This document shows, in pieces, positions 16,101 to 53,753 of a DNA stretch of 64,000 bases. The DNA comes from Asterochloris sp. CNOR1. Its lineage: Eukaryota > Chlorophyta > Trebouxiophyceae > Trebouxiales > Trebouxiaceae. The notes beneath the pieces are model-generated. The model was not told where the DNA came from. It ran no database searches and saw only the letters and a program-made list of their open reading frames with translations. Position numbers and translations under genes: made by a program. The stretch spans positions 2,232,001 to 2,296,000 of the forward strand of contig OZ017756.1 in NCBI GenBank assembly GCA_963969365.1, read 5' to 3'. The number at the start of each line of letters is the position of its first letter. Position 1 is the first letter of the stretch.

Positions 16101-16418
16101 GATATACCCAACCTGCTGACATTGCTCGCAAATGCATTTGATGGCAACTGCTGCTGAGCAGAACAGTGTCAAGCAAAGAGGAGGCGTGACAGGGGCATGC
16201 CTGATGCAAATGCACTGTGCTTGCCTGCAGAGGCAGACGCCAGACTCTCGACAGCTCCAGCCAGACACTCGGGCTCCTGCTGACTGCAACAGCTGCGGGA
16301 TCGCTACCTGGAATCTTAGCAGGCTTTCGACATCCAGGAACTTCAAGATGTGTATCAGACAATCAGGATCTAGACCTGGCAGCAGGCGTGCAGGGTGTGG
16401 CTGCGATCCAGGCGCCAT
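10179..16418 (-). CDS. Long F-box protein, tandem copy A
   Basis: The likely start is the ATG at 16418 (MAPGSQPH); the stop ends at 10179 after LIQLPAGVQ. An N-terminal F-box helix is visible (LDPDCLIHILKFLDVESLL). F-box proteins recruit substrates to SCF ubiquitin ligases through Skp1. The rest is divided among many exons matching copy B: YDDFIHRSCLDIAAS (16.0 kb), AAWTNGGVDEDLP (15.6), NVLLDANVWGAIQQP (14.5), LHPLVWLKFFTQAEA (12.9), MWPPVCCALQAE (12.5), LVVEHWECLTG (12.1) and TLRERHTGNVLAVK (10.3). I do not recognise the C-terminal region. The first intron begins GCAAG, not GT, as in copy B. The second half of the F-box (SPSVWLEL) is in a different frame from the first half, unlike copy B, so this copy may use another splice or be decaying. 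I could not thread a complete model. Confidence 0.55.
13679..13850. repeat. Intronic minisatellite, about 56-base unit, three copies
   Basis: Three diverged copies start near 13679, 13737 and 13793. Each holds a GCATGCAG- or GCAGGCAG-like core, then a CTGTTGGA-like block and a CATTGTC end. They lie in a probable intron of F-box copy A. A related four-unit set occupies the matching intron of copy B. Confidence 0.7.
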
Positions 16419-17167
16419 CGGCCTCCACGACGTTATCTGTGCCAAGCGCGAAGGGTTCTGTTCTTTTGCTCCTTTTTTCAAGGGTTTGACTGGAGAGGGG
16501 CAGGGCTTGACTGCATCGTTCTCTCTTGTGAGGGTGGAAGGTAGGACATCCCTGCATCGCCAGGAGGCTGCTCGATCAGAGGTGGTCGTGCCAGGACCCA
16601 GGATGCCAAGGCCCCACTCAGTGGCAGCTGCCTTGATAGCGCACCCAGCTATTACATGCTGTACGTACAAGCAAGACGATGCTTTCCAGGGTCGCTACCA
16701 CGCTTCAGGCTGTTCAGCCACTGAGGCACTCAGCCACATGCTGGACACAGCATAGGCTGTGTTTTTTTTTTGCCTGGCGGCAGCTGAATACACAGGGTAC
16801 GATGGGCTTCCAACAGGACAGTACGGCTGTCTGCCCTTCTGGCTGCCAGTTGCTGATGCATGCTGCTGTCAGACAGAGAATGATGCAACAACGACTGCAT
16901 GAGACTGGGTGGGAATAAGGCAAATCCAAGCTTCCCGACATCAAGCTGGATGGCTGCTGCCAGAGGGTGCAGCTTGCCAATGAAGCCTCAGAGTACAAGC
17001 AGGCAGAGTGTCATAAGATGACAACTTATGCAGCACCAGCGAGCCGCTCAGACGAAGGTGAACATCAACGCCTAGTCATGTTTACACTTGCTTCAAGGAC
17101 ACACAAAGGTCGGGGTGGGCAGATCCGTTACCATCATGAAACACAAATGCACTGATAGGGCTGAGAC

Positions 17168-20100
17168 TCATTGAGGTTTTACTTTGACACCTGCTGGCAG
17201 CTGAATGAGCCTGCCACCCAGCGCTATGTAGTTCACATCAATGTTGGGCGCATCGTGATCATCCTGGTGCTCCTCCATGAGATTTTCCTGGTCTATGAGC
17301 TTTACTGCCAGCACATTGCCAGTGTGCCGCTCACGCAGCGTCATGTTGATCTGACTGCAGGCATTGTAGAGATGTGGTGACTGGACAGCGCAAGGCAGCA
17401 GGTGTTCTCATGGCGTCCACAAAAGGACAGGTAGCAGTGGCTGTGTCCAATAAGGCATGACACCACAGCAGACAAGCACAACAGGAATGCGCAGCGCACT
17501 CAAGCTATTGACAGATTAGAGGTCAGCAAACATGCCCAGACATCAGGCAGGTCACTACTGCACCGATTGGCAATCACATGTGGCTGCAATCTATGTCGTT
17601 GTGCCAAAGGCAGCACTGTACCCAAGCCCAGCAGTCTGCAGATTTCTCCGTGGCAGTCTGCAAACCCGACTGCATTTCAGGGAGGCAGCAGGTTGCCAGC
17701 ACTGCATGCAATCTGCCAGCAGCAGCAGGCCCTGCAATCAACCCAGGCATCAACAGCCCCCAGCATCAGGTATCAAGAAGCCGTCCTCCGCCTCAACTCA
17801 GCAGCGAGTAGCCCCGACGGCTCCCTCGCCAGGCAGCAAGTAGCCACCATTCTGCACCCAACCCACAGTCAGAATCTGCACTGCACCCCACCTTACCTGC
17901 GCTCCCCACCATCTTCAGTCGCATTCTGCAGCGAGGGGATCTGGAAAATGAAGGCATCCTTAGGTGCCTGCATGCAAAACAAGCAGGAAGCGGTTTCAGC
18001 TGGAGCCTCATGGAGCCTGCACATTGCCTGCTGCACAGGCTGGCAGAGGCGCATCTTTTGCAGCTGCCGCAGATGGCGCAGGGAATGGACTGCCATGACG
18101 GCCCAGGCAGAGAGTCTCATCAGCTTTAGCCAGCAGGCAGCCTTTGTGTTAGTGCTTGTGATCGGGACCAGCAGAGGTGCCTGTGCACACCACAGCTTGA
18201 GGAACTCCATTTTGCACCTGGACTGCTGCATCAACTGGGCAGCCATGTTGAAGTAGCCTTTTGAGACATTTGTGGCAGCCCACCTCCTCAAACACCTCGC
18301 GATCCCTCTCCATGAACTGTCCTGTGTCATTGTCATGTGCTGCTCTGTCGCGAACATGGTCTGCCACATGCCAGGCGCAATACAGCGTCTCCTGTTCTGG
18401 CACTGCAGACAGGCAATGTGTCCGGGGACTTCTTTTGTCTGACAGCATGCCTTCACTTCTCATTCTACGAGGTCCATGCAAGTACATCAGAACACAAGCG
18501 AATACTCGTCTGTTTTCACGCAGCTGGTGATGCTGCTGCCCTCCTGACTGCTTTGAGGCGCACCGCAGATAGCTGCAGCCGGCAGGGTTGCTGCAACAGG
18601 CACAGTCTGCACAAGGCTGCGCATAGCATCTCTCGCTTCACGCCCCCACAACTCACCCGTGTTGTCCACGGTGAGGTCATCAACCCACGGCTCCTCCTCT
18701 TCATCCATGCCCATTATCAGCTGGACGTGGTGGACGACCAGCCGCAGTGATGCTGCCGATTCAATGTCCTGCAAAGCGGACAATTGGGCCAGTGGCATTT
18801 GTCAAGCACTTTGTGAACCCAGTACACGACATCTAGGGGCAGGGGCTGCACCAGCAGCAGCCTGCAAAGCGCAGGGCACAGCCTGCGCACTGCACCACAA
18901 GGTGCTCATGAGACGCTAGTGGGGCAGGTTGTGGGGCTTGCTGCTGTGAGGCGCGGCATGTCAGCCAGCACCCAGCCTGCACCTTTGCAAAACCTAGGTG
19001 AGGCAAGGCTCTGGCAAACAGGAGAGGGCTACAGCGCTGACCTGCAGGATCTCCTCAGCAAGGCACTGGAGGAGGGGTTTCCCCAGATGTAACCCTGCTA
19101 ACTGCGCCAAGCTCATTGGACTTCCGAGTCTTTGCTGCTGCTGCACCGGCCTGATGTGGTCCCGCTTGAGAGCACGCCACAGCTCCTGGTGGTTTTCGCC
19201 AGTCAGGCAGTCCCAATGCTCCACAACCAGGTCCAGCAGCTCTTCATTTTTCAGGTCAGGGTTCTCCTGCAGTCAGGTGGGCTTTGGAGGAGATTGCGGT
19301 GGGCATCTGAAAAAGCTCTGCATTTGCTGGGGCAAACTGCACCTAGGCCAGCTATGCTTTTGGATGAGTTGCCTGTCCAGCACACAGGAAGGCTCTGCAT
19401 ACTGCCAGGCTACAAAGCAGAGCTCGCCTTAAGGTTGACTCCTGAGTGGCAGTAGTGTTGTCCCTCAATGGGCGCCAGCCTGCCTTGCCTGCGGACGTGT
19501 TCAACCTCGAGACTTCCAGGGAACTTGTTTGCGCTCACCTGGCTGCCAAGTTCTGCCTCCAGCGCGCAGCACACAGGAGGACGCATGCTGCGAAGCAGGT
19601 GAGCCCCTTTGCGTGCTTCCTCATATACCTGCGACACAACGCCAAAAAGGTCACACGTTACTGTGATGGGCGCAGAAGGCAGCCAGAGCTTGGCTGTCTG
19701 GTGACCAGCTGTTTGGGGTATCCACCTGCTTGATCAATCAGCTCTTTGTCCTGAGGCGGTCAAATTCGTGGCAAGATGAAGAGCTCAGCCCAACAAAGCC
19801 TCTTCTATGATCGCAGAGCAATGGCAATTAAATTGTGGCAAGCCGGTGTGACCTGCACAGCAGTGCCGTCCGGAATCAAGCAGACAGTATCTGGTGCACT
19901 CCAGCTGGTTGATGCGCTGATGCTGCCGAGAGACTCACATCTGCCTCTGCCTCTGTGAAGAACTTGAACCACACCAGAGGATGCAGCACCGGCAGGAGGT
20001 CGCTGGTGCTGCTCGTAGGCGCTGCTGCAGGGCACTGCACCGCAGCAGGTTTTGCAACCTCAGAGGTCTGCGGCTGTGTGTGCCCCTGCTGGGCGGGTGA

Positions 20101-23100
20101 GGGCTGCACGACGCCGTCTCGCCGTTGGGACGAAGACCCTCTGGGGTCGAACTCCACCCAACAGCCGCACCTCCACACATGGATCTGAACAATACGCGGG
20201 AGCACGCCTGCAGACACAGAGAGCTGCTGAGCCTTTGCTGAGAGACGACAGCTCAGGGAATTCCATTTTCTGTGGGCAGATAAGCTAGATGGTCCCTGCC
20301 AGGAGGCTGCCAGTGTGTCTCTGGACAAGCAGGTCATCAGCAGAACTCCTGGGGGAGGGAGGGGGGGACCACCACTGCAGGCATGACTGGCTGCTGTCCA
20401 TGTGATGCATGCAGTGACAGAATGGCAGCTCAGCAGTCTACCCACCACAGTGGTGGCCATTTTGAAAGGTTGGGCAAGGCATCTGGTGGGGTTTCTTGAG
20501 CGCAAAATGGAAGGCAGACCTCAGTTGTGGGTACCCTAATGAGCAAGACAAGGCCAAAGGCAGGCCTGAGATTTCCCTGTGTGGGTGCCAGCTATCTGCC
20601 TAGGCCCATGTCAGCAAGCACGATGCAGACCTGAGGGGGGACCACAAAAGCTGGCTTCACAGGCATGCCATGCTCACCCCTGGAGGAGAGGCGCATCACA
20701 TCCCCAAGCTGGGTAAGGTCATTGAATGCTTGCAGACCCGGCTGCTGTGACAAGGCCTGCAGGCAGCAATGGTCTCTTTCTGTTGGACTGTTACATCACT
20801 GTCTGTAGTTGGAAACTGGTCTGTGACAAGGCATTCATGCAGCAGGAGTCTCAAGCTGCTGGAGCATTAGGCCATTGTCCATGCCATCAAAGCCTGCATG
20901 CAGCAATGACTTTAAGGCTGCCGGAGCGTTGGGCCATGGTCTTGGCAAGGTTTGGATGCAGCAACAGCTTCAAGCCGTCAGGACAGGACACTGGACATGG
21001 CCTCAGGCTGAAGTTTAGACCCGGCAACATACATCTCCCTTGTGCTGTGGGCTGTTCAGTACAGGCTGTGCAGATGGGCAAACATATGCCTGCAGAAGAG
21101 GGATCATCAAATCATGCTGTTGCTCTTGGGCCACCAGCAGGTATCATTTCTACACCTACAGTAAGTGTTTGCTCACTGTCAAGGTGGCATTGCCTGCCTG
21201 GAAGTCTGGCGCCCCTGAAGGAGCCTCTCTGACAGGAACTTGCTGACCCAGCGCAACAACTGCTGCATGCACTGGGCAGCTGAAGTTGCCTTGCCTGTCC
21301 ACTGAAAGACTGTCTATGACGCCTGCAGCCACAGCAGCGGCCAGTCAGGCTTACAATCACACTTGAGTCCTGTCAAACAGGCAGGAGGGCTAGCGGAGTA
21401 CCCGCCTCAGGAGGTGCAGCTGCTGTGCACTGATATGCGCCTACAATTTAGATGCACCCGTCGCCCTTGAGTGCTAGCAGTGGTCTTAGTGAGGCAGGGC
21501 ATGCCTGTAGGTGCAGCTGAAGCATGCTGCTTGGCGCCAACATTTCTGATCATACTAGCCGCATTTGAGTGCCGGCAGTGGCCTTGGCGGAGAGGAGTGG
21601 ATTCTCCCTCACAGAGAACCACCCTGCAGCCTCTGCTGGCCCGGCCAGGAGGCCCTGACATTGCCAAGCAGGCTGCTGTGCCAGCTTGGGAAATATGTTG
21701 GGGCCAAAGCTTGCCAGCAGCTCGCCACTTGCGGGCTCAGCGCTCGCAGCAGTCACGGTCAGGCGCCTGTCCTCAGGGCTGGCAGGCAGATCAGCTCACC
21801 CAGGGTGTTAAGCGCTGCAGGCTGCTGGATGGCCTCCCACACCTTGGAATCCAGCAGCACATTTGGGTCGGCCTTGCCGGGGCCCCACTTGCTGTCCCGG
21901 GCTAACTTCAATATCCCCCTTTCGGGCAGACGCTCCCTCTGCATGTGCTGGACAAAGAGGCTGAGGTGATGTGCCTCTGCTGCACGCTGCGCCCTTGGCA
22001 CATGGGCCAGCAGCATGCGACCAAGTGCATGCCCCTGCAGGCAGTGACATAAGTGACAATGGGACTTCTCACGGCAGAACGTCACATTCAATACATTTCT
22101 GCAGCAATGGCAGCAGGGGCCTTAGCGCCTGTCATCACGGAGGTTGACAACACAATCAAAGCTGTTGATGCAGAGATGAGCACAAGTGCTTGGACGTCTG
22201 CTGCCCAGTATATTTTGTGATGGGCCCACATGCTGTGGCCTAGTGACAGATTTTCACTGATATGTGGCACAGTGATAGGGCCAAGCACCAGAGACCTGCC
22301 TGGTGCAGTAACATGCGCATGCTCTGCCGACAGTGTGGGGGCTTGCACTTGGCTGGGACTGCTCTCGAAGAGCCTCCAGGTACAACCCCCAAGCACACTC
22401 CCAGGCAGCAATGCAGGCAGCAAGCCCGCGGCAGAGCTGCTGCATACACGCCACCAGCAATCAAATATCACTGCAGCTGACAGGCAGTTCACCATTTCAA
22501 GCTCCATGACGAGCTCGGTAAAGAACAACTCCAGCTCTGCTGTAGACCAACCCTCCAGGCGCTTCTCATGCTCCTGGACAAGCTCACTGTTCACGGTCTC
22601 ACTGTTCACATCCAGCTGCACAGCACCAGCACAAGTGTGGAACACAGTGAACACTGCTTCACAACCGCGCGCTTGGGCACTATGAGCAGCCCAGAAGGCA
22701 CGGCATCCCTGGGTGATTCGCGTTCAGCTGAACACGGTCAGCAGCCGTCTAACACGTCAAGCAGCAGGCACAGCAGGCTACTAAAAGCAGAACCATACAA
22801 GACCCTCAGATAAATGGGCGCCATGTGAGAAGGCAGCAGGGCACTGCCTGCAGGCAACTCACTGACTGAAGCGCCGCGCTATTCCCAAACAAGACCTGCA
22901 GGCAGACATGCATGTCTGAAGTACTGTTAAGAAAGGGACAGAGACGCCCTCAGGGCCAGCACCAGGCAGAGGTCAAGGCTGAGTCGAGTCATACACCACG
23001 TGCCTGATTGCTAGCGTCCACTGCAACGCCACACCAAGCATAACCATCAGCACCGGATGCAGGCCTCCAACATGCATGCCCCAGGCAGGGACGACTACAG

Positions 23101-36166: not shown

Positions 36167-37432
36167 ATGGCAGATCTCAAATCAGACCTTATGGCAGACA
36201 TAGAGGCAACTTATATGCAGCTTGCTCACAACGGGAACAGCTTACAAACCACAATATTAGGCTCCTCCTGTAAAGTCACAGGGATAATGAGGAAGCAACC
36301 ACATACGGTCTCTGCAAGCAGGGTGCTCCGTGATCACCACCCTGTTGGTCAGTGGGCTCATGCTCTGATTGAAAAGGCTGGAAGGCGGGGACCATTCCTT
36401 GAGCAGGCTCAGCCTCCCTCAGCAAGCCCACAGCTGTGGCAACACGACTAGGGCTTCATCATTGAGTCCAGGGTTGCCTTGAGTTGCCCCACGCCTCTGC
36501 AGGCATGTTGACTGAGGAGCTGCTGATCATGATCTTCACCTTCCTGCCTAACTGTAGGGCCATAGCAGCCTGTGCCTATGTATCGAGGTTGTGGAGACAG
36601 GCAGCAGACCAGGCAGTGCCTCGCTATGTGATCATGGACGATGACCTCCCTGACAATGGCAGTGAGGCACTGACAAGGATCCTCAAGAAGCAGTTTGGCC
36701 CTGTGGAAGCAGTGGGGAGTGAGACTTACGACGCCGAATCCAGAAACAGCTTCTCTCAGAAAGATCTACTTCTTGCCCTCATGTGCATCCAGGCAAAGGC
36801 GCTCAGTGACATCACCCTGTGAGTCTTGCTGGGGTTCACGTTATGCCTGGCATGCACCATGCTGCTGCTGCAGCTGTCAAGCAGCTCAAGCCATTCTCAC
36901 CTTCGCTTGCAGGCACAGAGTTCAATTTGAAGTGGTGGGTACACTGCTGCCAGCCACTCTCAGGAGGCTCAACTGCGAGGATTGTGGTCTCCTGCCAGGA
37001 CCCCGACACATAGACATCGCTCCGCTGAGCAGATTGATGCAGCTCGAGGAACTCTCTCTGCCGTCATTTCTGCAGCCACTCCCGCAGCTGCCTGCCCTTA
37101 GGAAATTTCACAGCAATATCTCAGACCTCCAGCTGCTGTCCTCTGTCATGGCAACGCTCAAGGAACTCACACTGGAAGGAGACAGCTGTGACTTCCAATT
37201 ACTCACTCGCTTCACACGTCTGAACTTCTTGGATGTCAGCTTTGATCACTATGACAACTTGATTGCTTCTTGTCTCCCTCGCACCCTGCGTAAGATATGC
37301 CTGCGCATCCCAACCCCCTCCTCTACTGAGCTGCAGTTCCCTGCTGGTGGCCAGGTCTGCTTACTGAATCACACCCTCTGGTGGACCCGCACTAAAAAGG
37401 CTCTCAGACCCATAGCACAGCAAACTGCATAA
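36167..37432 (+). CDS. F-box protein with LRR-like C-terminus
   Basis: Three exons (36167-36269, 36503-36818, 36913-37432) join in phase to 312 residues. A 34-residue leader (MADLKSDLMADIEATY) precedes an F-box at about 37-75 (MLTEELLIMIFTFLP, then VSRLWRQAADQ). From about 155, Leu-spaced segments recur (LPATLRRLNCEDCGL, LMQLEELSLPSFL, MATLKELTLEGD, FTRLNFLDVSFD), consistent with a few irregular leucine-rich repeats. Such proteins select substrates for SCF ubiquitin ligases. The gene is short for its class and unrelated in sequence to the two tandem F-box genes. The second exon could also start translation at its own ATG (36505). The first exon was chosen because it splices in phase and has a good GTAAAG donor. 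Confidence 0.75.
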
Positions 37433-37879: not shown

Positions 37880-40800
37880 TCATACAGGCTTTAACACATC
37901 TTCAAACAGGGCCATCTGCTGCATTCTGGCACTTTCCGCCTTTTCAATTTCTTGTAGCTCCCTACAGCCACAAACATCAAGTCAGCATGCCACATTGACA
38001 GCTCGCTCAGTCTGGCATGTGAAGCGGCCTGATGGCCTGGGTTGCAGGCATTGGCATCATGCTCACACGGGAGGCTCTTCGGTCAAGCCCAGCACATGTC
38101 CTCCACACTCTGCCCCACTCAATGCATCAGTCAGCAATCAACCACAGCATGCATGCCCAAGATGGCCAGCACTCACCTCTCCCTGCAGGCCACTGCCGCC
38201 GTCACACGCTGCTCCAAATCCTGCAGTTTGCGCTTGGCCGCCTTGGCGTGCTCTGCCCGCGCACACTCCAGCTTGGCCTGCAGAGGCTTCAGCTGCGCGT
38301 GGTCCGCCCGGTAGTGCCCCCACCGCTCCTGCACAGCCTGAGCAGGCAAGGCATGTGCATCAGTCGACAAGTTGCGCTGCATGGCAGAGCACAATGGCAG
38401 TCATAAGCCCTCCTTCCGCAGTGCCCTCAAAGCCTGACTGTAGCATAACTCCCTGAGCATACAGCCACATGTAAGCCTCTCACGCAGCACTGCTGCTGAT
38501 GCACATCAGGAGCGTCATGCGCTGCCTCCCATCATAGGCAACACCAGCAGCGCACACATGCCAGGCAGGAACAGACTCTGATGATGCTGGTCACAGTCCA
38601 CCAAGGAAAGGGTTTACCTCAGGTGTCTTCCATGATGCCTCACCTTCTGGTAGGCCTCCGTCTGCGCCTGGATGGCCTTCTGGTGCGCCTGCAGCCTGTG
38701 CAGCAGCGCATTCATCTGCTGCTGAGCCTGGATGTGGGCATCCTCCTCCTGTGCAGCCAGCTCAGCCTTTAGAGCCTCCACCTCACCCGCCACAGTGTCA
38801 CGCAGCTCCTGCAGATGGCACCAGCAGGGAACCTAGGTGTCAAAAGCACCTGCCCATTTGCCAAACCAGGGAACATTGTGGTGTCACCTCCAGACACCCA
38901 ACACAGCTGCTTGAGCACTGGCAGCACAGCAGCAGCAGACCAGGCAGGTCCGGTCCAGGGTGTGCTGAGCAGCAGACAAACAGCAGACAATATGTGGTTT
39001 GCTGGGTCTCCATAGCATGGAGTGTACAACTGCAAAAGCTACGCCATCAGCTGAGCCTGCAGGTGGGCCTGGGGAACAGCATGCACAGTGGGTTGTTAGC
39101 TCCAGTGCACAGCTTTGTGCTGGTTTCAGGCCGCAGAGCCTACAGCTTGTCTCTGCAGCTTTGGCAATTTGTAAGCCAGCCGGGACAGCCAGCAATGTTG
39201 ATGTTGTACACGCCATCCACCAACCGTCAGCAAGGAGCGCCCCCCTCCAGCACGTCAGCATGCAGCTACTGCGCAGCTGAGCAGCCCAGGCCCCACCTGT
39301 ACCATCTGGGTCTGCTTGCGCTTGGCCTGCAGGGCTCTCTGCTTGAACAGCTGCGTGATGGCGTTGCGGGCAGCCCTCTCCTGAGCCGCCAGCTGGGCAT
39401 CAATGTCGTCTCCCTCCTCCATGGATCTGTGGGGACAGACGGGGCAGAGTCAGCAGGCAACAGACATGATGCATCAGGCGCTCTTGTGGTGTCATCCAGG
39501 AGCCCTCTTGTGGGCAGCACTCAGGGAGCTCTCGGAAAGAAGGATAGAAGCAGATGGCTGGCATGGCGAGGCTGGCCTTGAAGCTTGTGCAGGCTGACGC
39601 AGAATACCTGACCAGGGTGCTTAGTCTAATCAGCTGGGGTGGTCACTCAGCCGTTGACGTTGCTGCAATTGTGGACCTGCATGAAGGCTGCAGGTGCCCC
39701 ATCGCAGACGCCTGCAGGTACATGCAGCACAGCAGTACTCACCCTCCCAGGCCCTCGACGTCATCTGCCACCTGCTGCAGGCGCGCCAGGTGGGGGTCTG
39801 GCTCTGCGCTCATGCCCCCGCCTGCAGCAGGGGCCTTGCCCTTGTGCTTGACGGCGCCAGCCCCACCTGCAGGGACATGGAGGGATGTGAGATGCGACAT
39901 GACTGACCCAGTTGGAGACAGTGAGGCAGACAGAAATGCGCCTGGGGATCCTCCTGCAGACAAGATAGCAGTACCACATAGGAACCGCTGTGGACTATTC
40001 ACGAAATTGAAGTTAAGTCCCAGGCAGGGCAGCCCCCTCCAGCCAGCTCTGGCAGCGCCACAGGTGTATTTGCATTTTGCTTAAACTCTGATGATATACA
40101 GTCTGCTCCAGGCAGAATGGTTTACCTTGCGCAGGCCTGCAAGGGGGAACCTGGAGAGCACCAGGTTGCTGTGTGTAGGTGCTGTGGCTGTGTAATGGCC
40201 TGACAAGGGTCCACCTCAGCAGCTGTAGAGCCAGCCTCAACATGCAACAAGGCCCCCTCACCTGCGCCTTGCCTGCCAGAGGTGCCTGCCAGCGCGTTTG
40301 TGTCCACAGGCTCCAGTGCTGGCAGCTCTGACAGGCTGTCAGCTGGCCTGTGGGGCCTGGCTGCTGCCAGAGATGGCAGCTGCAGATCCTCCGGTAACAG
40401 CTCATCCTGCAGGCAGACACACAAGGTGTAGGGCTGTTGCAGCACCCTTCCTGTTAGGAGCTGGGCGGAGCCTGGCAAGGCAGCACGCAAGCATGCTGCA
40501 CAGCAGCGGTGGCACCTTGCGCAGACCACCTGAGAGACAGCCTTGCCTTGAGAAGCAGCTGTGGTCCCTCAGCAGGCGATATGCAAATTGTGGAGGAGTG
40601 CCCACTATCTACTTGCTGCCGTGCCCAGCAGGACACAAAGCAGGCAGACTGGCATCTGGCAACACCTGAATGCGGGGTTGCCACAGTGCCAGACCAGTGC
40701 CAGCAGGGCAGCCAGGAGACGGAGGATGACCCTTGAACGGGGCAGCTTGTCGGCGAGCAGACCCTAAGGCCCTGCACTGCAGCCGTGAGCACCAAGCACC

Positions 40801-43800
40801 AAGCCTGCCCTTCACGCAGATGGCTCCCCTGCATGTGTATGCAGACATGCTCCCGCCTGCATGCTGCTGCAACCAGCAGGCCAGAGGGAGCTGGGGAGGA
40901 TTGTCGTCGGCACATGCATGGATTCCACCTGTTTGTAAAACCAGGACCAGAGAGCTGCATGCTTTGTCTGGCATCCTGGGGACAACAAGCCCTCCATAGT
41001 GCTCAAGCCTACAGCCATATACCAGCAGCGTCTAGATCCCTAGAGGGCCTCCCCATCTGTTGATGCTCTGTTCTGAGACCTGCAACTGCATCTTGCCAGA
41101 ACTGACGGGGTGCAGCAGCAAGCCGCGAAGGCTCACCTCCTCTGCAGGCGCGATGCCCTGCTTGTCGGTGTCTGCCAGCGTGTCCAGGCGCCGCTGTGCA
41201 GGCGGGCGTGCAGGCGGGGAGGCCCCCGCGGGTGGTCCCTGCCCTGCCCGCTGACGCTTGGGGCTGCCTCCCTCCCTGCCACCTGCAGCACGACCACAGC
41301 CGGCTAGGGCTCTCCTTACTCAGGAAAGAAGGCAGATAGTCAGAGCAGCCGCACAGGCTCCAATTCGTGGCCGACTCCTATGGACACTTCAGCGACACGT
41401 TTGAGCATGCACCCCAAGAAAGTGTGACTGCTACCTGCAGCCTCAGAAGTGGCGTGAAATTTGGCAGCAGCACGAGGCAGCAGAGTTGGCGGCTAAGAGG
41501 GCGTCAGGCTGCACAGGACCTGCGCGTGACTTGGCCTGGCTGAAATGGCATCCCATGGTATAAGAATGGCCTGGACCTGTTGGCGTGTTTTTAGTAATCT
41601 TGCACCCAACTGCCCAAAGCCATGTGAGGCGGGCACCCAGTTTGCAACATCTAGGGACGGGCACAGGCCACACAAGCTGCAATCTCCTTACCGCTCATGT
41701 GGGCCAGGCGCTTGGAAGGGGTCAGGCGCTCCTTGTGGCCAGTCCCAGGCATCGCGGGCGTGGGCTGCTCATGCTCAGACGCTGGGCCGCCCAGAGACAG
41801 GTCTGCACCCTGATCTGCCTCGTCTGCAGTGGCAGGAAGGAGCAGAGCAGTGATCAGCACCCCTTGGAGCACAGAGCTGGCTTCAAGGCAGCTTCCCTTG
41901 GCTAGTGAAGTGGTTCAATGGCACTGTGCCAGGGCTGCCTGCTGCGTCTCAGGCATGAACTGCAGCACTGTTGAAGCCAATGGTGCTGACCATGCGGTGA
42001 ATGAGGTGAAGACAGTTGATGCTGACCCTGGATGCTGGGCGCCCGAGTCGGGCCTGGGTCCTGCATTACATCTGTGGCAGGCACTGGCTGGCTGCTGAGC
42101 CGCTCTGCTAAGCGGCTTGACAGCTGCTTCAGTGTTTATGCTGAGGTCAGCATGCTAAGTCTGAGAGTGTTGTCAAACCCTGTGCCCATCTGGGACAGGC
42201 CAAAAAGGTATTAGTTTTCCCCTGGCAGCCTTAAACATGCAGGGCCCATGGGCTTGCCGGCCCTGCTGTCTCATGCTCGGCAACCCACCAGCACCCCAAT
42301 CTGCAGACAGCTGCACCTGCAGGCCGCTGCAGGTGAGCAGTCTTGCCTTGCCAGCCCCAGGGAACACGGGCCCACACCACGTTGTCTCGTGCTCAGTCGC
42401 CAACGGCATCCCGCGCAGCACAGAGCCAAATTCACTCACCAACCCCCGCATCGCTGTCCAGGCCTCCCAGCACCTCCAGGTGCCTGACTTTGCCACTCCC
42501 TGCCAGGTCTGTTGACTCCAGAGGCATCAGGTCAATCCCCATGTCGCCTTCCAGCTCCAGGCTGCCAGCCCTGTCCCTCAGCACCTCTGTCTGCTCCACC
42601 ACAGCCGTCCTCTTATGCACTGTCAGCACCTGCGGGCGACTGGTGCTGGGGGAACGGTGCTGCTTTGGCCGGTGCCTGGGTGGGGGCCATGAGTGCTCAG
42701 CAGCATCTGCTGTGATTCCCTCTTCCTCCTCTTCCAGCAGACTGGGCAGCTGCTCAAAGGCAGCGTTGGCCTGCAGGGCAGGCGCAAGAGGCAGGGGTGA
42801 GCAACGTTTAAGGCCGGAAGTCTATGTGTTCTGACATCTGGCCCAGTGTGCAGCTTCTCGATGCAGCGGCGGCCTGCAGGCATGGACAGCACAAGAAGGT
42901 CTGTCAGAGGAATGTGAGCAGAAGGCAGGAGACAGAGGCCGGACCTCAGAAGATAGACTGGGCATGCGAGGAGGGCAGGCAAAAACTCTGAGTGCAGGGA
43001 CATCAGGCCAATGCCCTACACTGTATCCGTTGAGACTGACTGGGGAGCCTGGCGCAGTGCAGAAGCCAGAAAGCAAGTGAAATCCAGAGGGTTGACTGGC
43101 AATGCTGAGACGCAAGGTCAGCTCTGCCTGGTCCAAGGCTGACAGCAGCACCATGGCAGCCTGCAAGATCTCAAGCAAACTGCGGCTGCACTACACCTTA
43201 GCGCAGAGGGGCAAGAGCTGAGGTATGTGTGCAGCCTGCACATGTGTCAATTATCTTACCCAAAGTCCAATTGGACCACCCAGCTGAGAAGTGCAGTTGG
43301 CAGAACGCAGCCGGCTCATAACCCCAAGCACTTATGCAGCTGCAGTGCCTCACCTCGCCATCCCGCCTGCTGCGCACTCTGCGGCTGCCCTCCTGCTCCC
43401 CGGCATCTCGTGCCCGCCTGGTGCCGCCAGCAGCAGCCCCTCCCTGCCTGCCCTTGCCAGCATCTGTGGCTACAGCAGCAGCTTTCTGCTTGCCCCTGCC
43501 AGCGTCTGTGGCTGCAGCTGTAGGTGCTATCTGCCTGCGCTCCATGGCAGAAGCCTTGCGCCTGATGCCATTAGGTTTTGGACTGCGGCCTCTGCCGCGG
43601 GTGCCGCCGTGCTTCTTGGGGCGCTCGTTGTCAGTTGAAGGCTCGTAGGCATTGCTGTACATGCTGGCAGGCTGCTGCTTGCCCTTCTGGCCCCGTGCGG
43701 CTGGCTGCTGCTGCTTGGCTTTGGCCTTGACGGCAGGTGGGCTCTTCGTGCGGGGCTGCTGCTTCTTCTTTGGCTGTTTTGGCGGCTTGTGGGCTTTGGC

Positions 43801-46800
43801 CCTGGCTGGGGAGGCCTTGGCAGGGACCCTTGCCTTCTTGGTTGCCGGAACATACTCCTGCAGAAGGGACACATGTAAGAAGAGGTTTGCAGAAATGAGA
43901 GCAGCGCTGTCTCGTAAGACACTGTAAGATATATGGCAAGGAGGGGTTCAGGGCAGCTGCTTGCGACACAGCCATCCGTGGGGCTGCTGCACTTCACAAG
44001 TAGCATGACAGCAGCCATGAAGTGAGTTGGAATGGCCCTTCAGGAAAGCTTCGGCTGGCGGCAGTCCAGCATAGCTAATTTGCATGGCCTCATGGAACAA
44101 GCTCTGCCACACGGGCTTGGTCAGTGCCAAGAGCGGGGATCCCCACTCTTGGCATTCGTGTGCGCATCTGGGCGGGCATTGGGCGCTCTGCTTGTGCCTA
44201 CCTTGCTGGTGTTATTGACTTGCCCTGGGGCACCTGACACCCTCACAGGGCTGCTAGCCCTTCAGTGACCAGAGCATCACGTCAGACTGTAGTGACGCAA
44301 GGCGCCATAGCCCATGGACAAGCTGGAGCTCTGACCCCGCTCGCAGCCTGAAGTATGTATTTACAAAGGCACCAGCGCCCACCCACCTCTCTGTCGCTCT
44401 CCTTGTCAGCCGTACCCTGCTGGCTGCTGTCTGGGCTGTCCTCCTCCATCTGGCTGCTCTCAGGCCCTGTGGCTGCCTCATCCTGCAGCACAAGCATCAG
44501 CCCTCAGAGGTGCAGGCAACATGGCAATTTAGCTTGCGCACCGTACCACAGAGCAGCCATTGCCACCTTCAGGGGTCCATGTTGACAAGTCGTCAGACCT
44601 GTGGGTGTCTGCTGCCACCACACAGTGCCGTGCAAGCCAGCAGTGGTGGTTGCTGCATGCATCACCTGACATTGTGCACGCCCCAGCGAGACAGCCACTC
44701 AGCTCCACCCAGCTCCTACAGCGGATTGTTTTGGAAGCTCTCTCTTCCACAAGGCCAGCTCCTTGTTGCAATTAGCGCTTACCTCAGAGCCTGTTGAGTC
44801 CTCGTTTTGCCCGCTGTCCTCCCCTTCTTCCTCCTCTGGGAGCTGCAGCTTATGCTTGGCCTTCTTGACAACCGGCTTCCTGCCATGCTTTGCTGCACTG
44901 GGCGCCTTCGCTGTCTTCTGAGCAGCCGCAGCAGCAGCTGGGCGGCTCTTGGGAGCCTTGCCTGCCTTGCCAGCATGCTTTGCAGGTGCAGGTGCAGCAG
45001 ATGCAGTTGGCTTGGAGCGCTGCCGAGCCGGCGCCTTGGCTGGGGCAGGCTGTGCTGCTTCCGCACCAGAGTCCTCTGTCTCAGACTCTGCCTGGAGGGC
45101 CTGCAGTAAAGAAGGTGCTTTTGTGTGCTATGAGGAGGCTAAGTCCTGGTGCTGCAGCCCACTGGGTCCCCAGCAGGACTGGCTGAGTGTGGCAACTATT
45201 GGAACAAGATTTGTAGCATCCTAACTTGCAACTGTGAGACACACAGAACTGGCAGCTGATTGGTGCCATTTGTGAACCTCTGGCGCTTGCATGGGATTGG
45301 CTGTCATGAGCAATCTAGGGAGCCAGCAATCCAATGAGGCCCACCAGTAAAGCAACAAGACCAAGACATTGCATGTCGGGGTCATGGGCTACAGACTGAC
45401 AAGCTTGTCTGGGCAGCCTTGAGATCAGAGAGCGATGGAGTCACAGCATGCAGGCGCACCTTGTGCGCTCCTGCAGCCTTGCCATGCTGCCCACTCTGTA
45501 GCAGCTGGCGACCGAATTCATGCTTGCCCATTCCTGCAGCAGCGCAGCTCACAGTTTGCAGCTGGCAGGGTGTAGCTCATGTGCCAAATTTTCAAACATG
45601 CACTGAGGTGGCAGCTTTTGTGCCACGCAGGTGTCAATGGGTGGCCCTGGTGCAGCTTGAGATTGTGAAGCAGCTCAACACTTCCCTGCCTCAGAAACTG
45701 ATTGCTTGCACTACACTGCAGTCGCCACTTTTCTGTCTGCCTGCGGCTCAAGGTATGGTGCACGTCAAAGAACTTCCCTTGCCTCAGGCAGTGCACAGCA
45801 GAACGCACTTTGCACAAAATCTCTCCTTCAAAACTCTGAACCTACCTGCTGGTGGTTGCTGCTGCTGCACCCAGGGAGGCTCCTTATCAGCCTGCCTTGC
45901 AGCGCCCTGCTCCAGGTCAGGGTCAGGCTCTGGCATGGTAGTGGCCTTTTTATGTGCACTTGCCGCTGGCCGAGACAGCGCTGCAGCACTTGAGTCAGCA
46001 CCTTTGGCTGCTCCGCCCTGCAGCACGGGGCTGCACTGTGTGTGCCAGCCAAGCTGACACAGACAGTGTACTCAGCTTTGCAGCTGTACCATTTGGCAAG
46101 CAGCAAGCTGATCAGCACACAGCCCAGCAGCTGCACCGCAGCAGCACTCCCCATGCTGACAGCAGCCTGCGCTCCAGCATTGCAAAAGTGCCAACACCCA
46201 TTTCAGCTGAAACAGATTTTGAGGTGGAGCCACTGAACCTGTTGAGAGGTGCAGCCAGCCTCTCAAAAGGCATCCAGAGCCAATGGGTATGGCAAGGTCT
46301 CAAGTTGACAGCACTGCGGCCTAGCAGCTCAGCTGTCACTGCTGGATTTCAGGTGGTTGTGGCCACCTTTCAAAATAGGTTGAGCCCTCTCCTGTAAGCG
46401 GCGCAGCCCACCCAGGGCCCAGCCTAAGGGAATCAAGAATTACCACCCCTGCCACCAGGCCTGACCTCAATTGGGTCACAAACACCCCAGTCTCAGTCCC
46501 CCGCTGCCACCAGTCCTCACCGGTGCATCCCGGTGGCCCCGGGCCTCAAGCTGCCGGTGACGTTGCTTGGCTGCCTGTGCCGGGCTGGGCGGGGAAGGAG
46601 GCGCCTCTAGCTCCCCTGCTGGCAGGCTGCTCAGCTCCCTCATGGCCACTTGGGCAGCCGCAGCCTGGTCTCGCCTGCTGCGCCGCTCCTGCTGCATGGG
46701 CCTGCAGCCATGCAAGGGAGCAGGTGAGGATGGAGCTTGACCTTCTGCTTCAGGAGCGGCTCCAGGGAGCATTGCTGGCCCCATGCTGCTGTTCTGTCTG

Positions 46801-49800
46801 GGCAGCGCAGAAGCATGATGTGGGTGTGAGCTGACTGCAAGGGCTGACGGTCAGGTGCATGGACCTCCAGGCAGGGTGCAAGCAGGAATAAAATGGGGCC
46901 AAGTCAGCAACAGAGGACAAGACAGCGGTGTTGGTCATGCTGTGAATGGTCATGCTGGTGAAGTTGGTCAGGGTGAGCTAGCTGAAGGCCAAAAGCCAGC
47001 TGTCATCTGTGGCCCTCCCTCCTGCTGATGCTCATGAGGCACCTGACAAAGTGTGAAAGGCAGTTTGCAACACATTGTCTGAGTGATGACCAGGTCACAA
47101 CCAAAGCTGACGGGGATTGCCCAAAGCTGGGGCAGCACAGACATGCACGGCAGCGTTGACTCCAGACCTGCCGAAGAGTCTCTTCGATCATTCCTGTGCA
47201 AGCAACTATTGTGGACCACACAAATTCAGAGGCCAGCCATCCCCAGCAGGCCGCCACTCACTGCTGAGTCAGTTGGTGGTGGGTGGAGCTGTCCAGGTGG
47301 TCCCCTTCTGCCTCGGCACTGGACTCGGGGGCGCTCAGAGATATCTGGGGCTCTGCCGGCTGGGCGTGGTGCTGCGGTCTGGCAGGCTGGTGTGCAGGTT
47401 GCTCCACTGGTGGAGGCTGCCGCTGTGGGGCCTCAGGTGGCGCAGCAGACGCCTGCAGCAGGTGCACAGCGTCAGACCATGTTGGCTGATCCACAGATGA
47501 GAGACCCTGTCTTGCAGCTTTTGCTGCTGTCTGAGCCTATGGTGTGGACATAACACGGGCATCCCTGACAACATGGAGAAGCAGGGGCTGCCATCTGACA
47601 GTCGCGCACTTGACAGCTGACTGCAGGGCCTACAGGCACTGCCTACTTCCAAGACCATCACTGTATTGCCTGTAACAGAGAATGAGAGCAGCCACCCACG
47701 TGCTGCTCGCCAACGGGTTCCGGGCGCGCTGCATGGCGGGCAGGTGGCTCTGCGCTGGCCACGCTGGGCCTGAGGGGCAGAGGCGTCCGCATTGAGGGAG
47801 CAGGGGTGGCCTCGCTTGGCTGCAGGTTCAGGCGGGCGCGCGGCAGAGCCCTGCAGGGGAGATAACCAACATTGGGTGCTGCACAACTGGCAACAAGCCT
47901 AGAAGGCCGACAGGCCAGGAGAAGCAGCATGGCAAAGCAGCCAGGACCACACAGCTGCTGCAGTCTGACAGCACGCAAGCTGGATAACGAGTGCCTCACT
48001 GAACAGCAGGAACCCAATGCAACATAAGCGGCTAACTATTGGCAGGAGAGGACGGGATTGCTCAGTGAGAGAATGTCAGAAGTTGCACTCACATGCCCTT
48101 GGAGACCTTGGACTTGTCGCTGGCAGGGGTTTGTGTTGCTGGCGGCTGCTGGGTGGGGCCTTGGATAGCGTCCTCTTGGCTTTCCGTCACACCTGCAAGC
48201 TTCTGCAAGGCACACAGCGCAGCACGTTGTCAACTCGGTAGTGCACATACTTGCAGGTGGCTGACCCTTGCTAGATGCTGCACAAAGCCACAGGGCTGCA
48301 AAGGGTCGAAGGGAACACCTGCAGGGGCCTGGGAGATGCAAGCATGCCTATGTGGTTTTGACACCTGAGTGCCCACACCCCAGCACATGCAAGACCCCTG
48401 GTCAAACCTAGGATTCATGTGCAGGGAACACCACACTTTTCAGGCACAGCCCGCAGCAATCTGCAAGCAGTTCACAGTAACACACTGAACAACCTTGAAA
48501 CTTGACCTCACCAGCAGGCGAATGGCGTGGGGGCTGCGCCGCATCTGCTCCACTGCCGCCCTGGCAAAGGTCAGTACAATCCACTGGTCGCTGCAGGCAC
48601 GCAGCAAGGACTGCCTCAGCACAGACAAATGGGGGACTTGTCATCTAGATGATGCCAGCTGCATCATGCATAGCCCTGCGCCAGCCAGTGCTGGTGGCCG
48701 GGACTCAACAGGGGCAGGGGACAGTGTTGATTACATGACGTTGTGCATTGGGGAGGCTGGTGAAAGACATTCCCTGCACATTGCATATACACTGCTAGGT
48801 TGCTGAAGCAGCCTACCATGCCAGCAACAGCCTGCAGCACAAGCTTGAGACCCCAGTGCAAAGGTGGACCCACAGCGCACTGCAGGCTGGCCCACCTATT
48901 GTCTGCTGCATACACCCCCGTCAGGCCGGCAGGCGTTTTGCACAGCTTGAAGTGCAGTGCCTCCTGGGGCTCTGCCTCACTGGAAGGCACAGCCAGCAGC
49001 TTGGCGCTGTTGATGTCACCTGCAGCATACCGCTGACTCTTTTCATGCTGTCACAGGGCACCAAGAATGAGCTGACGCCATCGATCAACCCTGTATGCCT
49101 GACAAGCTGCATGCAGCCAGCCAGCCTTCGTGTGTATGTCACTGCCAAGGTGGCCAGCACGCTTTCTGCCACTTTGAGTGGACAAGTCTTGCTGTGCACT
49201 CCTCTCAGGCAGCACTGGATGACACCCCTTGCTCAGACGCCTGTGCAGGACGCCTTCATCAGCCAAGAAGAAGCAACCACAGCACCCAACGTGCAGCGCT
49301 CTGGGCTTTAGGCCCCCAAGCACTTGACGCGACTCAAAACTAGCAGACTACTGATGACCAGTTGATACGGCGGTGTATGAGCTGACCCACTGAACTACTC
49401 AGGAAGCACTTGGCGCACACCTGTCAAGGCAGCCCTGGCCCCTACTGGAGCCCTGTCCCCACTCACCGTACTCGATGTGGAGCTCTGATGGAATGTCCTC
49501 CTCATCCACCGCCGGGCTTGGGATGCTTACCAGCATCATGAGGGAGAAGTGGGCTGCCCCAAAGTGCACCCACCCGCCGCGATCAGCCTCCACAGCTGTG
49601 GTCCCACTGATGGCCACAGAGGCTGCCTGGAAGGAGTGCACACTGCAGGCAGACAGGCAACGTAACTTGATTATGGCAGGGGACGAGGTATGCGACACGG
49701 TGGATGGTGAGCAGCTATTACAGAGGCAAGGTGTTGTTAGCTGCTTTCATGAGCAGCCCTCCCGTGCAGGTCAACCTCTGGAATTTTGTGTTGGGCCAGA

Positions 49801-52800
49801 TGGAAAAAGTAATAAGCCAGACAAACACCAGGTCATCTCTTGCTTCCGATCACAATAAGTGGGGTACAGGCATGCGGCAAGCCAGCCAAGACAGCGCAAG
49901 ACACAGCATAGCCAGGCTTGGCACATCTGGAAGCAACGCAGGCAGGCCAGCAGAACAGCAGCTTGAGCAGCCTTATCAGCTGCCACCCGCCACCTGGCAG
50001 CATTGCCCAGCTCATGGTTTAGCTCCAGGGCCATGGCTTGGAGAGCGTCCTCCAGGGATTGAACCTGCAGGGAGGTCTGACTTGGCGGCCTGGGATGCCA
50101 AGACAGGATACCAGATGCTTGTGCAGGCAGCGCTCACGAGTTGGCTGCTTGCTTGCCAGCCCCAACTTGTTAGCCAGCAGCTAAATGGCCGCCAGCCGCT
50201 CAAGCATATGCAGTGTAAGTCTGGGACATGCCTTTCTGCCTGGACAGGCCCCAGAGTGGTAACCCCAAAAACCCCTGGGCATCTGTGGGATGTAAGCAGA
50301 GTGCAGGCAAGCTGCGTCCTGCTGCATGTGCCAGGACCCACCTGGGTGCCTTGTGTGCCCGCCGTCTGCGCCCGTGCCTTGACTGCCCTCTGCAGGCGCT
50401 CTGGCAGCCAAGCCAGACAACTCTTCGGGAAAGCGTCCTTCAGGGACCTGATTCCCCGTACCAGCATCTCCAGCACATACATCTGCAGGGCCAGTGCAGG
50501 GGCAGCTCATCCAGAGTCTGCTGGTGCAAGGGATGGGCAGCAGTGAGAAAGCAGGGGTGGCATGCTTACACACTGCATGGCAGATCACGAGACAGGTCAC
50601 CAGCAGTATACTGCATAGCAGCGCAGCTGCCGGAACCTCCTCTGACTGCGCAGCATGCATAGGTCCTTGGTGCCAGTGAAAGACACCAGACACAGCACAA
50701 ATGCCCTGATTCCTGCAGCACGGACCTGCATATTGAAGTCCCCAATGTTGGCCATCTGGTGCACCAAAAATTCCTGAAAGTAGGAGCTGCAGATGACCCT
50801 CTCTGCAGTGTTGCGCTCCTTGTAGAACATGCCTGGCAGCAGCTGAGCAGCTCGGCGCCTCACCTCCAACGTCAGCCTGCAGCAGGGACAGCGGCTTGGA
50901 CTGACTGATGACTTGACGGCACAACTCAACATGAGTGTTTGTGGCTGCTTGTCTCCAGTCAGGCTTGCACCAACAGCAGAGGATGATTGAGCAGTGTAAC
51001 AAACGTTGCACAAACAAGACCGTGGAGCACACACGCTGCAGACTGAGACCTGCGCTGCCAGTAAGTGGCTCAGCAGCGCTCATGAGGGAACAGCGCTTGG
51101 CACACACTGCCCACCTGTTGTCGGCCAGCATCCGGACACAAGAGTCTGCAAAGAGGGAGCCCAGCGTGCTGCGCAGACCAGGCACAAGATGGCTCAGCTC
51201 TGCAGGGCCAGCATAGCAATCAGTCTTACACCCCAGCATTGCCACAGCCACCACGGAGAATGCAGGGCCATAGTCACTAAACAAGGCACCGTGGTGCACA
51301 ATGCAGGCTGGAAGTCGTCTGCTACAAACTACTGATGTGAAATCAAGCTGCAGCAGGCCGCTAGGGCAACTCGCAGCAACTCTCGGCACAGCTGCAGGAT
51401 GCCTCTCCCAGCTGGTTTAAACGCCAACGTTCAAGCCAAAACCGCACACCCAGCAGGTGCAGGGGCGGATGCCGTGATAGCTCTGGCTGTCCTTACCCAG
51501 CAGGCCCTCTACCACCTTGAGCAGGTTGTTGAGCAGGAGGGCAGCATCGGTGGGCCACACCCCAGTGCCCTGCAGACAGCAGCAGACACATCTTATTGAA
51601 ACACAGGGACAAAGTGCTCCATCCTCAGCGTGATGTTGAGAATGCACAGAGCATGCTGCCGTTCTGCATGGGGTTGTGCCAAACATAGGGAGATTTGCAT
51701 CCTGCAGTGCTCCGTCCAAGGAGGCCAGCTGGCGCTTGCCAGGACGGCATCACGATACCGCAGACATGTCTGGGTTCGACATCTCTTGCACACCCACTAG
51801 GCCTGTCACCCAGACATCTCTTGCGAACCCTCTGGCCTGTCGCTAAAAGAGCAGCATGTGGGGCCCAAGCGTTGTGCATTGCCATGCTTTCCAGGCACCA
51901 CACACAAACCCGCCTTGGCCACCAGGGTATCAGTGCAGCCAGGTGCAGCCAGCAGGGGTGGGCCAGGCTCGCGCCAGTTGAGTGAAATCCAAGCATTCAG
52001 CCTACCTTTGGGTCACCCTCGGCCAGCAGGGTGTCAGCTCCCCTCTTCAGGCTCTCCAGCACACCTTGAGCCACCATTGCCTGTGCCAGCTCCGAGCTGC
52101 AAGGCAGGGGCAGACAGATCAGGCACATAGAGCCATCGAGCTCATGGCTGCTGTCAGCCCCCCCAGCAAATGGCTGCGCAAAAGGCTATTACACTCTGCA
52201 CCCCAAGTGCTCAGTTGCCGCAATTCACAAGTCACCAAGCAAGCTGCACTTGGTGCCAGTTCACCTGCAAGTTTGGCAGTAGCAGCAGCTTGCACAGGTG
52301 TTGTGGCTGTGACTGGGCCACGGCGAGGGACTGCAGCCAGAAGTCACTGTCTTAGTGTACATCCCACCTCAGCGCATTGGCTGGCATGACCTGCACCAGG
52401 TGGTGCGCCAGCACTAGGCGGTCCCCATCCTCCAGCAGCCGCCCGTCCCCAGCAAACACCTGCAGGCACCCACGCCCGCGCTTGAGCACTTGTGAGGCAG
52501 AAACTCTCATAGCCAGCCATGCGCAGGGACTCTGGATCACCCGAGGCGTTATGCAAGTGGGCTGAAGCCACGCTTGCAAGTGCTGCTGTGCTGGGGCTGC
52601 CTGCACAGTCTCTGCCTAAGCAGCAGTAGTGGAGCCCTGCAGAACCTGTGGCTGGCAAGGCTAGGGGGACGCTGCAATCTACACAGCAGCTGGCACCAAG
52701 TGCTTGGGTGTCTGCATTACCCTGACAGCCCTGCTTTTACGGTAGCCGAGGCGCACCATGCCAGCAACAACCCAGCTGCTCATTGCACCCCAGCGCGCGC

Positions 52801-52945
52801 TCACCCTGGTGAGGGCACCTGCCACCGCTGCCAGCTCATTGGTTGAGGTGGCCTCCCTGTCTTGTTCTGGCCCTTGCCACCCCTGCAGCTGCTCAACTGT
52901 GTGCAGGTCTGAGGTGTCACCCGCCAGGATGACCGCCAAGTCCAT
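37880..52945 (-). CDS. Meiotic chromosome axis core protein, SYCP2/Red1-like
   Basis: Twenty-nine exons with phase-matched GT-AG junctions throughout give 1478 residues (human SYCP2 has about 1530). Residues 1-281 (52945-49994) form a helical, armadillo-like domain. Its order of motifs follows SYCP2: MVAQGVLESLKRG, then LLNNLLKVVEGLLE, RRRAAQLLPGM and MANIGDFNMQMYVLEMLVRG (SYCP2: GDYDLQVGIVEALCR). Residues 282-408 (49642-48512) are beta-rich, matching the Spt16M-like domain: GGWVHFGAAHFSL, EDIPSELHIEYG, ALHFKLCKTP, DQWIVLTFARA. A long charged, Pro/Ala/Lys-rich linker follows, with acidic clusters and likely nuclear signals (SPKRQR). From about 1260 a coiled coil runs to the C-terminus (NALLHRLQAHQKAIQAQ, KAAKRKLQDLEQR), ending EDVLKPV. 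Family members build the proteinaceous axis that organises meiotic chromosome loops. An exon upstream of the ATG at 52945 is possible. Family assignment is by eye, from motif order and layout. Confidence 0.75.
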
Positions 52946-53753
52946 GATGCGGCCTCTGGGCTGTACCAAAAACACTAAAGATCAGCTTCTGAGGGCTGGT
53001 CCAAATAATTTTGCACGGCTGCATAGAGCTGCGCACACTGAGCTTGAGATGCATGGTCTGGAGGCTTTGGGCAGCCTTGTCTACGAAATGCTCCAAGGCA
53101 ATACCCACCCGATCCCAGGTCAGTGTCGAGCTGCGATGTCAATGGCTGAAGACGCAGCAATTGATTTCAAGCTGACCGACAAGGTGACCATCCCCGGCCT
53201 TTCTCCATCTTCAGCTGGAGTGAGTTACACTGCAGCGATCAGGCAGTGCTCCTGACCTCATGCTGTGCTGGGGCATCTGTATAGGTCACTATATCACATG
53301 CTATGTGACACCCCGCAACCTGTCATATTTTCACAGGCCATGTGACACCCCGCAATATGTCATATTGTCACAGGCCATGTGACACCTCGCAACATGTCAT
53401 TATAGGTCATATTGTCACAGGCCATGTGACACCTCGCAACATGTCATTATAGGCCATATTATCACAGGCCATGTGACATCTCGCAACATGTAACATGCTC
53501 CCGCATATCACATGAGGCCGTTGATGCCTTTGTGCTACTTTAAACACACAATGTCACTGATGATGTGCAGGCACACCTGCTGCAGACCAGCAGCCAAGTG
53601 TGAAAGCATGTATCATGTGTGCTGCTTCTTGAGAGAGCCTGCTGATGCAATCAGCATGTCAGCGGCATCCAACATTTGATCTCAGTATTCAGCAGACAGT
53701 GGTACTTGCATGAGATGCACCTGATACTTAGCGGCAAAGCCATGGACATTCTT
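52946..53753. other. Intergenic stretch with repeats
   Basis: It should contain the leader and promoter of the axis-protein gene, which reads leftward, and the 3' flank of the NTPase gene. A minus-strand frame at 52917-53108 (MGIALEHFVDKAAQSLQ) could be an upstream exon of the axis gene, but I found no phase-matched donor. The tandem repeat at 53262-53510 fills its middle. Confidence 0.4.
53262..53510. repeat. Short tandem repeat, 37- and 47-base units
   Basis: About five units carry GTGACACC(C/T)CGCAA, then ATGTCAT and TCACAGGCCAT. The first two are about 37 bases long. The next two are 47 bases and contain an added ATTATAGG(T/C)CAT segment; the last is partial. The unit includes short self-complementary pieces (ATGTGACA/TGTCAT). 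It lies upstream of the axis-protein gene. Confidence 0.85.

Follow-up and report, generated by a model that had tools for sequence, protein, structure and literature searches.

The 64-kb window, by which the whole stretch of DNA analysed here is meant, carries a 29-exon gene on its minus strand (Table 1). The reading frame starts with an ATG at 52945 and closes with a TGA ending at 37880, comprising 1510 codons plus the stop without an internal stop, and the preliminary description was exact at both ends. All 28 introns follow the GT..AG rule, the longest being 730 bp. The exons were placed by eye from splice sites and phase, at a time when the SYCP2 hypothesis was known and the ASY3 comparison had yet to come. 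Other GT and AG sites are present in the gene, for example a second acceptor for exon 28 located 39 bp upstream, and the acceptor chosen for this exon yields the ungapped alignment of the tail with ASY3 described below. Codon use was examined by training preferences on one half of the gene and scoring the other half in six frames. The claimed frame ranked first in 27 of the 29 exons, the two misses being exons 4 and 5 (both shorter than 90 bp), where it ranked second and third. The scores of the best intron frames (n = 28) spanned -0.65 to -0.16; 28 of the 29 exons scored higher, while exon 5 (-0.21) falls within the intron range. GC at codon positions 1, 2, and 3 amounts to 0.725, 0.511, and 0.699. 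The 29-exon model looks real and is well supported.

Within the window, tblastn (E up to 10) revealed no second copy of the gene, although short exons could escape such a search, and the best match to the tail outside the gene had an E of 0.15. When ten individual ORFs from the gene region were scanned against Pfam, a single weak match (Pmp3, E 0.32) of no bearing came up, and a search for relatives of the protein produced 94 pattern matches in genome contigs and six in viral contigs, none of them confirmed, in collections that are not expected to contain algal genes.

Table 1. Coordinates of the predicted axis gene and its regions in the window.
Feature	Position	Strand	Remarks
Whole axis gene	37880..52945	minus	29 exons, 1510 aa; very probably an ASY3/SYCP2-type axis core protein
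Exons 1-8 (aa 1-281), armadillo-like region	49994..52945	minus	aa 83-220 match mouse SYCP2 89-225
Exons 9-11 (aa 282-408), place of the Spt16M/PH-like domain	48512..49642	minus	in the position of the SLD in mouse SYCP2
Exons 12-25 (aa 409-1331), linker	39743..48202	minus	disordered by composition and folding index
Exons 26-29 (aa 1332-1510), C-terminal coiled coil	37880..39426	minus	ungapped match to Arabidopsis ASY3 and ASY4

Several other features were observed in the window. Two ORFs at 4517-8182 (minus strand) hit PF08392, the FAE1/type III polyketide synthase-like family (E 9e-16 and 8.1e-12). They cover different parts of the profile and probably belong to a single intron-rich fatty acid elongase gene; taken with the ASY3/ASY4-like tail of the axis gene, they would suit a green alga as the source. 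Also on the minus strand, the stretch from 12038 to 21965 contains two protein motifs in duplicate (19272-19135 and 12169-12038, 73% identical; 21965-21819 and 14637-14494, 71% identical), which looks like a locally duplicated gene. An F-box domain (PF12937, E 6.3e-07) is encoded on the plus strand, opposite to the axis gene and past its 3' end (36466-36816). Just upstream of the start of the axis gene (53294-53491), units of 37 bp and of 47 bp are arrayed in tandem, each in about three copies. Within exon 20, in the linker, a 42-bp unit is repeated in tandem about twice (43431-43518).

The C-terminal tail (aa 1331-1510 in all comparisons) was aligned to the coiled-coil regions of ASY3 (793 aa) and ASY4 (212 aa) from Arabidopsis (PMC6349405), the letters of which were taken from PMC9957857, and significance was estimated from 2000 shuffles that kept the residues of each heptad position. 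The best ungapped diagonal with ASY3 scored 48 over 180 residues, with 23 identical and 72 positive, and stopped one residue before the ASY3 C-terminus; the runner-up of the 150 diagonals scored -2, and none of the 2000 shuffles reached 48, the highest being 36. With ASY4, the best diagonal scored 28 (next, -11), a value reached by one shuffle in 2000. The register offsets of the three pairs agree (alga-ASY3 +8, ASY3-ASY4 +14, alga-ASY4 +22; 8 + 14 = 22), and the joint register score of the tail with ASY3 and ASY4 was reached by none of the 2000 shuffles. ZYP1B, an unrelated coiled coil serving as a control, scored at best -18 among 444 diagonals, and the reversed tail gave -7 against ASY3 and 5 against ASY4. 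The ASY3 signal peaks at aa 1361-1390 and is weak but positive in the other five 30-aa blocks; against ASY4, three of the six blocks are negative. When gaps were allowed, the local scores were 68 for ASY3 (4/500 heptad shuffles as high) and 71 for ASY4 (2/500), and 21 overlapping windows of ZYP1B scored slightly lower, from 37 to 61. Because the ZYP1B windows come this near, the ungapped test is the discriminating one. SYCP3 showed no clear register with the tail (best -3 for human and 9 for mouse), and likewise none with ASY3 or ASY4 (best 0 and 2).

Other measures of the tail were less distinctive. No clean heptad period was found in it, the hydrophobic period ranging from 3.05 to 4.15 over 13 windows, and Arabidopsis ASY4 as a tblastn query (E up to 10, within the window) did not pick up the tail exons. 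Despite the unclean period, the C-terminal coiled coil of the preliminary description is accepted, since the tail matches ASY3 and ASY4. Judged from the alignments, homology of the tail with the coiled coils of these two proteins can be regarded as firm, and a homologous C-terminal coiled coil is the criterion of the ASY3/ASY4 family. The ungapped register match had not been part of the preliminary description.

For the N-terminal half, the letters of PDB 5IWZ served as the mouse SYCP2 reference. A BLOSUM62 local alignment of aa 1-423 scored 62, with 28 identities in 122 aligned residues, a score reached by 4 of 5000 shuffles; smaller runs gave 1/500 and 0/500, and 2/500 when residues were shuffled inside windows of 20. 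Seven aligned blocks, spanning mouse 89-225 and alga 83-220, occupy the same position within 10 residues, and the controls, namely the rest of the algal protein, taken in windows that start at aa 424, and ZYP1B, scored 29 to 47. The single phmmer comparison of the N-terminal half with mouse SYCP2 returned an E of 0.0027, and BLASTP with composition correction aligned mouse 89-373 to alga 83-364 at 20% identity (E 0.19). Profile and database searches were less favorable. Up to an E of 10, the Pfam models SYCP2_ARLD (PF18581) and SYCP2_SLD (PF18584) found no match in the spliced N-terminal half, whereas the mouse SYCP2 control matched them at 1.3e-68 and 1.3e-45, and by the curated cut-off the algal protein lies outside both families. 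A phmmer search against PDB (E up to 10) yielded two matches, SYCP2 not among them, and tblastn of the mouse SYCP2 region against the window (E up to 10) found five places, none in the axis gene. Single-sequence hhalign of the N-terminal half against SYCP2 was not significant (14/200 shuffles as high, 10/100 with window shuffling) but nonetheless selected the same positions, 143-226 against 140-221. The armadillo-like first domain of the preliminary description thus keeps its collinear similarity to mouse SYCP2 and lacks a match to SYCP2_ARLD, and on the alignments it is probably homologous to SYCP2.

The Spt16M-like beta domain proposed for the following region fared worse. Compared alone with SYCP2 in four settings, aa 282-408 showed weak or absent similarity, with 13, 51, 28, and 35 of 500 full shuffles and 19, 68, 17, and 26 of 500 window shuffles scoring as high, and by hhalign 109 of 200 shuffles did so. 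An AlphaFold2 model of exon 9 alone (58 aa, without an alignment) contained two helices at low confidence (mean pLDDT 65) and says little, and simple propensity measures did not separate the armadillo from the PH-like region in either the alga or the mouse. A PH-like fold of aa 282-408 is plausible from its position and from the family. Under the criteria that Tromer et al. (2021, PMC8131943) set for SYCP2-type proteins, applied here to single sequences, the armadillo part stands on the phmmer and shuffle values above, the PH part is not significant, and the C-terminal coiled coil is contained in the same protein, in one frame and with homology of the tail to ASY3.

The linker (aa 409-1330) is rich in Ala, Pro, Gly, Glu, Ser, Gln, Arg, and Lys, and the folding index is negative in 13 of its 15 60-aa blocks (421 to 1320) and in none of the seven preceding blocks. 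Its Ala/Pro-rich composition and low folding index bear out the long disordered linker described previously. An ASY1-binding motif like that of Arabidopsis ASY3 was not found when the whole protein was compared with the first 40 residues of ASY3, in which that motif lies (100/100 shuffles as high), and another motif is possible.

Taken by regions, the full SYCP2 layout of armadillo domain, PH-like domain, linker, and coiled coil is probable rather than proved, the PH-like domain being plausible. Of the SYCP2/Red1 layout claimed in the preliminary description, the coiled coil, the linker, the armadillo-like similarity, and the order of regions hold, and so does the near-SYCP2 length, with 1510 aa against 1500 aa for mouse SYCP2 (PMC5498334). 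The layout might be merely apparent if an unrelated helical-repeat N-terminal half were joined to the ASY3-type tail, as could be argued from the Pfam and PDB searches without an SYCP2 match, from the beta domain that the sequence does not reveal, and from exon 9, which alone is modeled as helix at low confidence. However, the local similarity to mouse SYCP2 occurs at similar positions and was equaled by very few shuffles, and in Tromer et al. (PMC8131943) Chlamydomonas ASY3 is listed as SYCP2-type and Marchantia lies on the SYCP2-type search path, so that an unrelated N-terminal half is unlikely. Somewhat less likely still is a model that fuses two adjacent genes, an upstream armadillo-repeat protein and a downstream coiled-coil ASY3-like protein: the splice sites were picked by eye from the genomic sequence and alternatives such as the exon 28 acceptor exist, but a single frame passes through 28 GT..AG introns, none longer than 730 bp, the codon model supports the exon frames over the whole span, and the regions follow one another as in the family described by Tromer et al. 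(PMC8131943). A generic, non-meiotic coiled-coil scaffold is very improbable, for although coiled coils look alike and the Pfam and PDB matches of the tail were weak, with apolipoprotein among them, such apolipoprotein matches also came from the SYCP2/3-type profiles of Tromer et al. (PMC8131943), and the one ungapped register in which the tail aligns to ASY3 as well as to ASY4 lies well beyond the heptad-preserving shuffles and is absent with ZYP1B.

The predicted protein is therefore very probably the algal equivalent of ASY3 and a member of the SYCP2/Red1 group of axis core proteins, because its tail stands in an ungapped, consistent register with ASY3 and ASY4 and, less strongly, because of its armadillo-like region. 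Like the algal protein, Arabidopsis ASY3 (AT2G46980) has a long linker before a coiled coil that aligns without gaps over 180 aa to the same end within one residue; unlike it, ASY3 is reported to have no Red1/SYCP2-like N-terminal domain (PMC6349405), whereas the algal protein is preceded at its N-terminal side by some 400 additional residues. Mammalian SYCP2 (mouse, PDB 5IWZ) shares the length of about 1500 aa, the order of regions, and the armadillo-like similarity at similar positions, a likeness below the thresholds of the Pfam and PDB searches. Chlamydomonas ASY3 and a Marchantia homolog, filed as SYCP2-type proteins of the green lineage with an armadillo-PH-coiled-coil layout (PMC8131943), are likened by description, as are yeast Red1 and the RED1 of the brown alga Ectocarpus, for which an armadillo-PH-coiled-coil layout is reported (PMC12678776).

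Tromer et al. (2021, PMC8131943) inferred an ancestral armadillo-PH-coiled-coil gene and counted Chlamydomonas ASY3 among duplicated SYCP2-type genes. Plant ASY3 appears to be without the Red1/SYCP2-like N-terminal domain according to West et al. (2019, PMC6349405), in agreement with the statement in the preliminary description that ASY3 has no clear ordered N-terminal half. The connection drawn there among animal, fungal, and plant axis proteins was already in print, the fuller animal-like layout having been reported for green algae in 2021 (PMC8131943). Its companion proposal, a loss of the N-terminal half in all land plants, is rejected, as the same source places this loss in seed plants.

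In the current view of the axis family (PMC6349405, PMC5498334), placement on chromosomes is ascribed to the N-terminal half, recruitment of a HORMA protein to a closure motif, and filament assembly to coiled-coil tetramers that join together. By analogy with the family, the armadillo-like and PH-like half of the algal protein may dock it on meiotic chromatin or cohesin, a short motif in the disordered linker may capture the HORMA protein HOP1/ASY1, and the coiled-coil tail may form tetramers that are joined end to end into a filament at the base of the chromatin loops. How the second domain folds, that the protein binds a HORMA partner, that it forms filaments, and that it acts in meiosis are all inferred from the family. 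In ASY3:ASY4 filaments, whose coiled coils are roughly 145 and 180 residues long, West et al. (2019, PMC6349405) found a spacing of 23.0 nm, a scale with which the algal tail of about 170 residues would fit.

ASY3 has been reported in chlorophytes and ASY4 in streptophytes only (PMC9957857), and tblastn within the window (E up to 10), which could miss short exons, found no convincing ASY4-like gene, the best ASY4 match having an E of 0.49. The best ungapped scores are 48 for tail-ASY3, 28 for tail-ASY4, and 117 for ASY3-ASY4, which leaves the tail outside the ASY3-ASY4 pair. Since it nevertheless shares one register with both, the tail may predate the ASY3/ASY4 split. A speculative extension, more doubtful than not, is an axis built of one protein, in which such a tail without an ASY4 partner would form homotetrameric, Red1-like filaments and carry an SYCP2-like chromatin-binding half.

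An ASY3-type tail and an SYCP2-like N-terminal region in one protein would directly connect the axis proteins of plants and animals, and the value of the algal gene lies in providing a further, testable example. It offers a place to ask what role the armadillo-PH half plays and what the seed plants lost with it.
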